Source: Anaerocolumna aminovalerica
GTDB lineage: Bacteria; Bacillota; Clostridia; Lachnospirales; Lachnospiraceae
Reading direction: 5' to 3'
DNA: 60,045 nucleotides
Assembly: GCF_900115365.1 (NCBI RefSeq)
Contig: NZ_FOWD01000025.1
Span: forward strand, 1-60,045
Made by a program: the position numbers and the translations under genes. The notes under the pieces were generated by a model, which saw only the letters and a program-made list of their open reading frames with translations, did no database searches and was not told the DNA's origin. Positions 1-25,662 of the stretch are shown here, in pieces (positions within the stretch are counted from its first letter, which is position 1; every line of letters begins with the position of its first letter).

Positions 1-1
1 T

Positions 2-190
2 CTAAAATATAAATATGGGAACAGAAAATTTTGGTGTAGAGGATACTATGTTGACTCGGTTGGTAAGAACGCCAAAAAGATTCAAGAATATATCAGAAAT
101 CAATTAATGGATGATCAAGCATATGACCAACTGAGTCTCAAAGAATATATAAACCCGTTTACGGGTGAGTCAGTAATAAAAGGTAAATAA
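2..190 (+). CDS. tnpA: IS200/IS605-type transposase TnpA, C-terminal part (cut by window edge)
   Basis: The frame is open from the window edge to TAA at 188-190 and encodes 62 residues. The text RKFWCRGYYVDSVGKNAKKI followed by an EYI..QL stretch and a final KEYINPFTGE segment is the typical C-terminal end of the small Y1 (HUH) transposases of the IS200/IS605 group. These enzymes move single-stranded DNA by recognising hairpins at the element ends. The start and the HUH motif lie outside the window, so activity cannot be judged. Hairpins follow directly downstream (191-243 and 301-322), as expected for the right end of such an element. Confidence 0.8.
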   Translation, partial: LKYKYGNRKFWCRGYYVDSVGKNAKKIQEYIRNQLMDDQAYDQLSLKEYINPFTGESVIKGK

Positions 191-243
191 TAAAAGCCCT
201 TGTTAGGGCTAAACCAGAGAAAAAGGTGCGGTTAGGGCTTTTA
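191..243. repeat. Nested inverted repeats after tnpA
   Basis: TAAAAGCCCT (191-200) is complementary to AGGGCTTTTA (234-243), and AGCCCT (195-200) can also pair with AGGGCT (205-210). The outer pair may act as the tnpA terminator, because a short T-rich tail follows. The shared left arm means that only one of the two hairpins can form at a time. Confidence 0.55.
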
Positions 244-8595: not shown

Positions 8596-8805
8596 ATATT
8601 CACCTTCCTATAAAATACAAAGAGTATTATTATTTCATTATTGTTGTTAAAGACCAGCTGTTAATCCGCTGTTAAAATATATTAATCATTCCCATTGTTT
8701 TTATAAATATCCCAAGCAGATTCACTCTCCTTTATTTAAAGAATTGGCTCTTATTTTACAATTTTATCAATTTTATTACAAGTCTGTTACTTAATTGAAT
8801 TTTAT

Positions 8806-9075
8806 GATATAATAAAAACGGAATGAAGAAAATACAAGCTTGCTTGGATTTTCTGAGTGGAGTGCCAAGATCATGAACAGCTTTATGTTCATGATATAAT
8901 AAAAACGGAATGAAGCAAATGCAAGCTCGCTTGGATTTACTGAGTGGAGTGCCAAGATCATGAACAACTTTATGTTCATGGTATAATAAAAACGGAATGA
9001 AGCAAATACAAGCTTGCTTGGATTTTCTGAGTGGAGTGCCAAGATCATGAACAAGATTTATGTTAATTATATAAT
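8806..9075. repeat. Array of three 87-bp units with covarying hairpins (array 1)
   Basis: TATAAT boxes at 8808, 8895, 8982 and 9070 mark a period of 87-88 bp. Each unit reads: TATAAT, an AAAACGGAATGAAG segment, an internal hairpin, the conserved TGAGTGGAGTGCCAAG, then ATGAACA and TGTTCAT arms that form a second hairpin leading into the next TATAAT. Internal stems are 8828-8838/8843-8853, 8917-8925/8930-8938 and 9004-9012/9017-9025, each with one mismatch and CTTG or CTCG loops. The third copy decays at its end. A related array lies at 24477-24743. 8596-8800 shows nothing further except the tail of the neighbouring gene's promoter region. Confidence 0.85.
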
Positions 9076-9230
9076 GCTAAATTCTTTTTTATAAAATTCG
9101 AAACATGATTTTATTATATAAGTTTAAAAAATAACGAATAATTTAGATTAAATTAAACATAATAGGTAATGGATACTGAAACAGATTCCATAAGGATTTT
9201 TCCTTGTGAATTTAAGTAAGTATTCCTTAA

Positions 9231-9396
9231 ATATGAATGTGTCTCGAAAAGTAATGTAGCATGAAATTATGATCCCGAGTTAGGAGAGATGGTAAATGGA
9301 GGCTTTAGGAGGCAACGAAGTTAACTATTGAAATAATTCAGGTAAAAGATCTTAACGATCTTAATAATGGAAGCTAAATATTATTAGTGAGACATT
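9231..9396 (+). ncRNA. Candidate structured RNA, class not assigned
   Basis: The segment is closed by GTGTCTC (9239-9245) pairing with GAGACAT (9389-9395, one G-U pair). Inside are a purine-rich stretch (GAGTTAGGAGAGATGG, then GGAGGCTTTAGGAGGCAACG) and a small hairpin AAGATC/GATCTT (9346-9351/9357-9362). A strong terminator starts three bases later. The non-coding stretch 9076-9632 has no credible reading frame. Some words recall the glycine riboswitch (GGAGAG, TTCAGGTAAAAG), but the CTCTC partner of GGAGAG is missing and no glycine gene follows. The raiA-type stand-alone RNA of Firmicutes is another option that I could not verify from memory. Confidence 0.45.
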
Positions 9397-9398
9397 AA

Positions 9399-9442
9399 AA
9401 AGACAGAGCAAGGGTTGTATAATCCTTGCTTTGTCTTTGTTG
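9399..9442 (+). terminator. Strong rho-independent terminator after the candidate RNA
   Basis: A 15-bp stem, 9399-9413 with 9424-9438 (one G-U pair, loop of ten bases), is followed by TTTGTTG. It lies 190 bp before the next gene, so it ends a transcript from upstream. That supports an independent RNA or a premature stop in a leader. Confidence 0.85.
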
Positions 9443-9559
9443 CGTCAAAAGAATAAACACAGGTGGGTTCCTTATTATCAGCTACCTATTAAAATCACAT
9501 AAACACATCAATATTATTAGCCCAATATACCCTTATTACCTGTATTAATAAATTCTGTG

Positions 9560-9632: not shown

Positions 9633-10169
9633 ATGACTTGTATTGACGCACAACGGTTGATTATGCCGTTTATCAATAAAAAATTAGATATCAACCAAAT
9701 GGAAGATTTTATAGATCACATTCATTCCTGCCCTAACTGTATGGAGGAATTGGAGGTGTATTATGTCCTTCTTTCAGGTATGAAACAATTAGATGAAGAT
9801 AAAGAGTTATCTGTGAATTTTCATCAGGATTTGCTACAATTAATAAAACGTTCGGAAGATAGAATTTTTCATGATAAGATATTACATATTAGGAAAAAAA
9901 TTATTTTAATCATTGTAATAACTTTGACTGCATTTATTTCCAGCTTTCGAATTGGAGAGTTTGTAGTAGAAGATGTGCTTCATAAGGAGCTTTTCAAAAG
10001 TAATTTTTATATAGAAGGGCTGTTCCCTGAGGATGGGGATGGTATACTTTCTGGAAAGATTTCCGGACATTTAAATGAAATTCATAATTTTTTAATGGAA
10101 GAAGATCCGGAATCCGCTATTCGGTTAGAAAAAACCTATCCGGAATATGAGTGGGACACCAAAAAGTGA
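9633..10169 (+). CDS. Membrane-anchored zinc-finger (zf-HC2 / anti-sigma-like) protein
   Basis: This 178-residue protein starts with a short zinc-finger region: Cys3, then His29-x3-Cys33-x2-Cys36 (HIHSCPNC), the pattern of the anti-sigma-factor zinc finger. A cytoplasmic linker leads to one membrane segment at about 89-105, followed by an outside domain of about 70 residues. Family members usually bind and inhibit an ECF sigma factor encoded next to them; no sigma factor gene is present here, so the partner is unknown. GGAGGAAG (9621-9628) precedes the ATG. It lies just upstream of polA, with its own promoter. Confidence 0.65.
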   Translation: MTCIDAQRLIMPFINKKLDINQMEDFIDHIHSCPNCMEELEVYYVLLSGMKQLDEDKELSVNFHQDLLQLIKRSEDRIFHDKILHIRKKIILIIVITLTAFISSFRIGEFVVEDVLHKELFKSNFYIEGLFPEDGDGILSGKISGHLNEIHNFLMEEDPESAIRLEKTYPEYEWDTKK

Positions 10170-24389: not shown

Positions 24390-24476
24390 AAGAAATTGTA
24401 ATAGTTTCTTAAAATCATTCTGATAATAGTAAGAAAGCATTTGTAAAAAAATTTCCACAAAATAATAGTAATATGA

Positions 24477-24743
24477 TATAATACAAACGGAGTGAGATAA
24501 TTACAAGTTTACTTGTAATTATCGATTGGAGTGCCAAGATCATGAACAGCTTTTATGTTCATGATATAATACAAACGGAGTGAGATAATTACAAGTTTAC
24601 TTGTAATTATCGATTGGAGTGCCAAGATCATGAACAGCTTTATGTTCATGATATAATACAAACGGAGTGAAGAATTTGCAAGCAAGCTTGCAAATTCTGA
24701 GCGTAGTACAAAGATCATGAACACGTTATGCTCATGATATAAT
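24477..24743. repeat. Array of three 87-88-bp units with covarying hairpins (array 2)
   Basis: TATAAT boxes at 24477, 24565, 24652 and 24738 mark the period. Units share ACAAACGGAGTGA, GATTGGAGTGCCAAG and ATGAACA...TGTTCAT flanks with array 1. The internal stems are perfect and differ from array 1: GATAATTACAAG with CTTGTAATTATC in units 1 (24496-24507/24512-24523) and 2 (24584-24595/24600-24611), and GAATTTGCAAG with CTTGCAAATTC in unit 3 (24672-24682/24687-24697). The third unit has drifted (GAGCGTAGTACAAAG). The array lies between the M23 gene and relQ. Confidence 0.88.
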
Positions 24744-24858: not shown

Positions 24859-25662
24859 ATGGAAATTCAGTTATGGAGAGAAATATTAGATCCCTATGTT
24901 TTAGCAGTTGATGAATTGGTAGTTAAGTTCAATCACATTATTGATGAATATCGGAAAATGGGTGATTATTCACCAATTGAACAAGTAAATGGAAGAGTGA
25001 AAACCATATCAAGTATTTTAGAAAAAGCACAGAAAAAAAATATTGCCTTAGACAATATGGAAGAAGAAATTGAAGATATCGCAGGAATTCGAATTATCTG
25101 CCAATTTGTAGAAGATATAAACAAAGTAGTGGAAATCATTAAAAAAAGAACGGATATGACTGTAAAAAGTGAAAAAGACTACATTGCCCATATGAAATCC
25201 AGTGGATACAGAAGTTATCATTTGATAATCTATTACAATGTTCAAACTCTAACAGGTACCAAGCAAATTCAAGCAGAGATTCAGATCCGCACCTTAGCCA
25301 TGAACTTTTGGGCAACCATTGAACATTCCCTTCAGTATAAATACAAACATAATATGCCGGAACATATCCGAAACAGACTTTCACGTGCAGCAGATGCCAT
25401 AATCGCATTGGATGCCGAAATGTCACAGATCCGCGGTGAAATTATGGATGCGCAAAATTCATTTAAGATAAAAGCAAATACCGTTTCGGATATATTGACC
25501 AATATACAAAATCTATATAAAGTAGCAAATAAGAGGGAAGTTCTTAAGATTCAAGATGAATTTTATAAAATTTATGAGACCGGGGATTTAGAACAACTGG
25601 AACGTTTTAGTAAGGAACTGGACGTGATATCAGAAGGATACCGGGCTCAGAGTTTAAGATAA
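24859..25662 (+). CDS. relQ: Small alarmone synthetase, RelQ/YjbM type
   Basis: This 267-residue protein has a single RelA/SpoT synthetase domain. Motifs are GRVKTISSILEK, IEDIAGIRIIC, DYIAHMKSSGYRSYHLII and EIQIRTLAMNFWATIEHSLQYK. The HD hydrolase and C-terminal regulatory domains of long Rel are absent, so it makes (p)ppGpp-type alarmones without degrading them. Helices fill the C-terminus, where RelQ proteins form tetramers. GGAGAG precedes the ATG. The second hairpin array lies directly upstream and may affect its expression. Confidence 0.88.
   Translation: MEIQLWREILDPYVLAVDELVVKFNHIIDEYRKMGDYSPIEQVNGRVKTISSILEKAQKKNIALDNMEEEIEDIAGIRIICQFVEDINKVVEIIKKRTDMTVKSEKDYIAHMKSSGYRSYHLIIYYNVQTLTGTKQIQAEIQIRTLAMNFWATIEHSLQYKYKHNMPEHIRNRLSRAADAIIALDAEMSQIRGEIMDAQNSFKIKANTVSDILTNIQNLYKVANKREVLKIQDEFYKIYETGDLEQLERFSKELDVISEGYRAQSLR

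Follow-up and report, generated by a model that had tools for sequence, protein, structure and literature searches.

The window analysed here, the whole 60,045-nt stretch of Anaerocolumna aminovalerica contig NZ_FOWD01000025.1, contains two arrays of short tandem repeats. A periodicity of 87 nt in three copies was found at 8801-9061 (locus 1), and one of 88/87 nt, also in three copies, at 24473-24728 (locus 2). A sequence-only reading of this DNA had reported arrays of 87-bp units at these two loci, and they are real, with three units each at 8804-9075 and 24473-24743; the repeat is not a product of chance. The first array, which extends from its left box at 8808 to its right-hand TATAAT at 9070-9075, lies upstream of an ORF; the second separates a putative −35 element from a RelA_SpoT-domain gene. 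The features are as follows.

8804..9075, + strand: locus 1 array (units 8804-8890, 8891-8977 and 8978-9065, plus right-end box)
8808..8813, + strand: left-end TATAAT of locus 1, the presumed native −10 target, as suggested by comparisons at other sites
8819..8862, + strand: hairpin 1 of locus 1 unit 1, including an outer C-G pair and tandem G.A/A.G pairs
8870..8895, + strand: hairpin 2 of locus 1 unit 1 (ATCATGAAC/GTTCATGAT), extending into the next TATAAT
8895-8900, 8982-8987 and 9070-9075, + strand: further TATAAT copies of locus 1
9633..10169, + strand: gene downstream of locus 1, with no Pfam match at E 1e-4
24453..24458, + strand: TTCCAC, 18 nt from TATAAT; presumed native −35 in the promoter of the RelA_SpoT-domain gene
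24473..24743, + strand: locus 2 array (units 24473-24560, 24561-24647 and 24648-24733, plus right-end ATGATATAAT)
24488..24531, + strand: hairpin 1 of locus 2 unit 1
24539..24565, + strand: hairpin 2 of locus 2 unit 1
24859..25662, + strand: gene for a RelA_SpoT-domain protein (PF04607, E 9e-36), downstream of locus 2

ATGATATAAT(A) borders the units on either side; each starts with ATGATATAATA and ends with GTTCATGATATAAT, which doubles as the start of the next unit. The sequence-only reading had assigned to every unit a TATAAT box, a conserved word and a hairpin ATGAACA/TGTTCAT. All six units do begin at TATAAT. The word GGAGTGCCAAG is carried by five of the six, the last locus 2 unit reading GCGTAGTACAAAG, and the hairpin is exact in four, its right arm being altered in the last unit of each locus (TGTTAAT, TGCTCAT). 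Between the locus 1 array and the ORF at 9633, a stretch of ~350 nt (9100-9450) closes with a terminator-like hairpin, GACAGAGCAAGG...CCTTGCTTTGTC, followed by T-rich sequence; it has no Rfam match at the gathering threshold and may be an unannotated RNA or a small ORF.

Copies of the unit occur genome-wide, which bears out the earlier suggestion of a dispersed repeat. A DNA search gave 40 matches in the A. aminovalerica genome, and a profile run over 28 fetched loci (30 less two that overlap) found 63, of which 45 were of near full length. A covariance model, which the sequence-only reading had recommended building, was made from 43 hand-picked units (those 45 minus two near-duplicates and one decayed copy, plus one weak copy); it gave 59 matches at E 0.001 in this genome, with 150 of 3578 first-look candidates scored, and further copies in relatives. 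Identity is 0.91 within arrays (22 pairs) vs 0.80 between arrays (881 pairs), and the nearest match lies in the same array for 22 of the 29 units of multi-unit arrays; this is consistent with local amplification.

The arrays are biased in orientation. With a dicodon-based gene caller the downstream gene was in sense for 23 of the 26 arrays that had one called (18/25 with a cruder ORF caller), and upstream genes were evenly divided (14 + and 13 − of 27, dicodon-based caller). No array lies entirely within a called gene, and one shares 32 nt with the end of a gene. Pfam domains of the downstream products, from which we take the gene names, include RelA_SpoT (locus 2), the ClpX zinc finger, GIY-YIG (UvrC-like), ribonucleotide reductase, the F420/NADP oxidoreductase fold (ProC-like), type III pantothenate kinase and a DNA polymerase III delta'-type subunit; two further genes are presumably metallo-beta-lactamase-like and aminopeptidase-like.

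The first TATAAT of the arrays has a promoter-like setting. In the 22 of 28 arrays with an exact left TATAAT (six were dropped), the upstream match to TTGACA at spacers 16-18 scored 3.14 of 6 vs 2.65 in shuffled sequence (19/2000), and spacers 16-17 scored highest among 10-32. For 33 of 37 arrays in other genomes (four dropped) the corresponding values were 3.12 vs 2.63 (3/2000), with the −35 score there being higher at spacer 8 (2.55) than at 16-17 (2.39, 2.42). The five positions immediately 5' of the box mostly spell TATGA (19-21 of 22 at each base in this genome, 28-31 of 33 in others), resembling an extended −10. Four empty sites, described next, deviate from TATGA before the box (clpX, the RelA_SpoT gene, L218 and L220); the element itself may therefore bring some of these bases.

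Further evidence comes from orthologous sites. We queried nine genes downstream of arrays in 15 genomes of the genus, and one Anaerocolumna relative, G013, had orthologues of seven. All seven G013 sites are syntenic and array-free, and five are legible up to the box, where a single −10-like box stands in place of the box-array-box arrangement of A. aminovalerica. This box is an exact TATAAT in three cases (RelA_SpoT gene, clpX, metallo-beta-lactamase-like gene) and non-exact in two (TATGAT at uvrC, TATATA at coaX). The array is likewise missing beside the proC-like and aminopeptidase-like genes, where the flank is too diverged to align to the box. The RelA_SpoT promoter reads TTCCAC-N18-TATAAT, one base, then AACCCAGTAAATAGATTC in G013; in A. 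aminovalerica the array is interposed and the last TATAATA leads into AACAGGGTAATGGATTC, such that native sequence picks up directly after the last box. The TTCCAC is identical or similar in most relatives, whether the array is present or absent. At clpX, TTGTTT-N17-TATAAT is common to both genomes. Right flanks were too diverged to place the right junction except at the RelA_SpoT and L220 sites.

The comparison also works in the opposite direction. Among seven G013 array loci examined, two (L218, L220) are missing from A. aminovalerica, which has a single TATAAT there, and three are occupied in both genomes: the ribonucleotide-reductase site (L223, paired by eye with L013 of A. aminovalerica), a site near holB (L217, whose A. 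aminovalerica side is inferred from two array-bearing contig ends) and L222, where the A. aminovalerica copy is decayed. The remaining two (L219, L221) gave no filled/empty call. At the RelA_SpoT promoter, inspection by eye of 13 genus genomes found units or relics in seven (A. aminovalerica, G005, G006, G007, G011, G012 and G014) and an empty site in six. The three shared sites and the occupancy of this promoter could reflect old inheritance or a kept function. Dispersed copies with both filled and empty orthologous sites are what a small non-autonomous mobile repeat leaves, and the comparison with G013 leads us to a mobile, non-autonomous element targeting −10 boxes. The TATAAT boxes appear to be the insertion target, the host's own −10, rather than simply the promoter of a small RNA.

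G013 also carries a unit variant of 117-118 nt (L218 1004-1121, L220, L222, L223), with an extra hairpin GTGGGAG...CTCCCAC or GTGCGAG...CTCGCAC that would make hairpin 1 a three-way junction. A. aminovalerica retains this long variant in truncated form near the right end of L006.

Each unit folds into two hairpins, with + strand RNA fold z-scores for the six window units of −3.96, −2.36, −0.47, −4.69, −5.30 and −4.52. Folding is good as RNA and as single-stranded DNA, and by energy alone the − strand does likewise. Hairpin 1 is missing from the best predicted fold of locus 1 units 2 and 3. The sequence-only reading had stated most strongly that the central stem at locus 1 varies at paired positions while keeping the hairpin; those differences are C.A, C.T, A.G and G.G mismatches, and the statement therefore holds between loci only, where compensatory change in hairpin 1 is real.

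In the alignment of the 43 units, 91.8% of 995 cells are paired. Changes on both sides of a pair were found in 79 cells vs 32.4 in shuffles (0/500 as high), and 11 of 24 pairs changed on both sides vs 7.6 (1/500 as high), with no excess of extra pair types (24 vs 25.3 in shuffles, 441/500). Structures slid along the alignment pair at 29-48%, a control that is biased in favour of the fold because the structure was drawn from the same sequences. An alignment lacking excess compensatory changes had been named in advance among the grounds for rejecting selection on a fold, and the excess is there in changes on both sides. In its outer section, hairpin 1 has a covarying purine-pyrimidine pair flanked by conserved G.A and A.G pairs, in this and other genomes (units of at most 104 nt, long variant left out): A-T 24, G-C 14 and G-T 4 of 42 in A. 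aminovalerica, and A-T 28, G-C 12 and others 7 of 47 elsewhere. Across the twelve hairpin-1 pairs, G.T outnumbers A.C by 19 to 7 in A. aminovalerica (p 0.03) and by 35 to 13 in other genomes (p 0.002), counts of non-independent events in both cases; this favours the + strand. Hairpin 2 shows no such preference (G.T 10, A.C 15). The proposed selection on a folded nucleic acid is supported for hairpin 1. Near the tip of hairpin 1, alignment columns 33 and 48 form a non-standard pair in 15 of 42 distinct units, which would fit a mismatch that is tolerated or preferred at this place. A pseudoknot of the hairpin-1 loop with CAAG, weighed by eye, was unsupported.

Two other explanations bear on these folds. 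The units might act in cis as regulatory leaders: the native promoter would transcribe them, and their fold in the 5' leader would control the downstream gene. The sense orientation upstream of core genes, the occupied RelA_SpoT promoter in seven of 13 genomes and the RNA-like covariation of hairpin 1 all fit this idea, but the functions of the downstream genes are unrelated, seven orthologous sites in G013 are array-free, and Rfam offers no match: at the gathering threshold the window gave none and ten related loci gave a tRNA only, the best sub-threshold match in 8750-9120 having E 0.84. We consider such leaders improbable. Alternatively, the palindromes might be double-stranded operators, each array binding protein. 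Hairpin 2 is suggestive in this respect, being nearly invariant, indifferent to strand and placed over the interval directly before the box; its loop length nevertheless differs among units, and hairpin 1 shows free covariation and, on the + strand, a preference for G.T above A.C. An operator array seems very improbable to us.

We return to a mobile element and to the question of what would move it. The sequence-only reading had pointed to a hairpin target of a REP/RAYT- or IS200-type transposase. On this explanation a Y1 HUH transposase would act in trans on both hairpins, cleaving TATAAT on the left and right. The plan of the unit is partly as expected: it has a pair of hairpins close to its ends, no visible terminal inverted repeats, the target beside the left end and oriented insertion, with the + strand favoured for hairpin 1 though not for hairpin 2. 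Furthermore, A. aminovalerica has IS200 copies of its own (17 PF01797 matches, many at contig ends and one at the window start), and a Y1 match is present in four of 11 genomes that carry the repeat. However, Y1 (PF01797) is absent from the other seven carriers (G005, G006, G007, G011, G128, G144 and G413), six of which are at least 94% complete. Looking for HUH transposases with the copies had been suggested as a check, and the converse also fails: G008 has four unbroken Y1 genes and zero repeats. The left ends of the five A. aminovalerica IS200 copies examined are unrelated to the unit, carrying a different hairpin, with T-runs shortly before four of the five. REP elements are marked by GTAG or GTGG 0-2 nt 5' of the hairpin foot according to PMC6006769; by inspection of the unit alignment, the foot here is RTGA or AAAC. 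By inspection only, the left 4-mer RTGA can pair with TAAT at three of four positions and CAAG, the 4-mer 5' of hairpin 2, cannot, which gave guide pairing no clear support. The Y1 gaps among carriers, the G008 genes without repeats, the unrelated IS200 ends and the missing REP foot tell against, though not conclusively, a Y1 enzyme that was lost or has diverged moving the unit in trans, and an element of the IS200/IS605 or REP/RAYT type is in our judgement unlikely.

IS200 copies of two or more subfamilies sit at contig ends (window 1-200; among others L086, L089, L092, L094 and L095 of the same genome), where they probably break the assembly. We also considered the unit ends as flanks of a coding element and rejected this: 20/20 exact right ends fall in covariance-model matches, and although left-end matches with at most 2 mismatches numbered 63 (control 3), the five off-array ones that were read (stretches of 0.4-1.8 kb) were by eye truncated copies or chance-like. 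The Y1 search of carriers and the IS200 end comparison identified no mobilising enzyme, which counts against the mobile-element reading.

The repeat reaches beyond this genome. Including A. aminovalerica in each count, matches by DNA and model were found in 10 of 15 genomes of the genus, covariance-model matches at E 1e-5 with stricter filters in 3 of 397 genomes of the family, and the exact right-end pattern in 6 of the 397, with zero reversed patterns among the matches listed. The five other genomes with the right-end pattern show the same plan, with hairpin-1 sequences that are mostly different, usually at TATGATATAAT; judged from sequence, same-plan relatives are sporadic in other Lachnospiraceae. 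In a class sample, the 195 remaining genomes lacked the pattern, and viral contigs lacked its exact form; phages and plasmids gave no match with one unit as query. An exact 18-mer scan of an 84,980-species collection returned 21 stretches, of which 15 were in Lachnospiraceae, Anaerocolumna or Clostridiales records and the other six were about the chance expectation. In G128, of another Lachnospiraceae genus, very similar units of ~70 nt with a GAA-loop hairpin 1 stand at TATGATATAAT-like boxes (L192, L198, L204, L206), with the right half of a unit only at L202. This genome has no Y1 match, and its units look like a young, separate burst.

Taking these observations together, we think it probable that the unit is a non-autonomous mobile element of ~87 nt, with a 117-118 nt variant, that inserts in sense orientation at the TATAAT (−10) of sigma-A promoters. 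The asymmetric TATAAT target would impose the orientation. The host box would stay on the element's left and the element would bring an extended −10 (TGATATAAT) on its right, where the new box may act as promoter. New units might enter at either box, or arise by unequal exchange, to produce tandem arrays. A trans-acting enzyme would presumably recognise the + strand in its folded state, most likely as single-stranded DNA, and join it at TATAAT, perhaps aided by the melted −10 of an open promoter. Weighing against this reading are the sites occupied in both genomes, the two non-exact boxes among the five legible empty sites, the higher spacer-8 score in other genomes and the indifference of hairpin 2 to strand.

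More tentatively, since here the odds seem to us somewhat adverse, these units may represent a class of promoter-parasitic elements that target the −10 itself (possibly its melted non-template strand), regenerate a working −10, are transcribed by the host, form arrays and use an enzyme unlike known hairpin transposases; on such a proposal, tandem arrays would grow because each end is a fresh target. Insertion into a −10 should destroy the promoter, and the element appears to escape this by carrying a box at its end. If this is true, the leaders of core genes (RelA_SpoT, clpX, uvrC, ribonucleotide reductase) are altered without silencing, and the arrays offer a testable case of integration aimed at a site melted by RNA polymerase. 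In the literature searched, subscription papers aside, we found no element that inserts into a −10 box and no mention of the present repeat; as far as our searches reach, the −10 box is undescribed as an integration target.

The nearest precedents for promoter targeting are the Mutator-like DDE elements TnGBS, ISLre2 and ISKra4, which, according to PMC3942029, insert beside sigma-A promoters, several in fixed orientation, and spare genes. The unit might accordingly be a MITE moved by a transposase of this kind. Yet the same source describes full elements with transposase and terminal inverted repeats, inserting 15-17 bases upstream of the −35 rather than at the −10. Our unit has unlike ends, ATAMAAACG and ATTATATCATGAAC, which by inspection are not inverted repeats, and the flanking copies are a TATAAT-type box where a DDE-type MITE would show a varying target duplication. 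We give a DDE origin scarcely any credence.

Other bacterial MITEs, such as bcr1 of Bacillus cereus and Correia/NEMIS, resemble the unit as dispersed intergenic hairpin repeats near genes, and their targets differ from the −10 box. Unlike the unit, bcr1 and NEMIS are described with terminal inverted repeats in PMC3733652, and so is Correia, whose promoters are treated in PMC10969869. IS200/IS605 ends and REP elements share hairpins near the ends and a left-flank target with the unit, and differ from it by the Y1 enzyme, absent in seven of 11 carriers here, and the GT[AG]G foot. Pneumococcal BOX elements (PMC3049150) are likewise small and dispersed, with modules repeated in tandem inside them and folds predicted for their RNA; in BOX, boxA and boxC cap the boxB modules, whereas here whole units repeat, with the target box bounding each.
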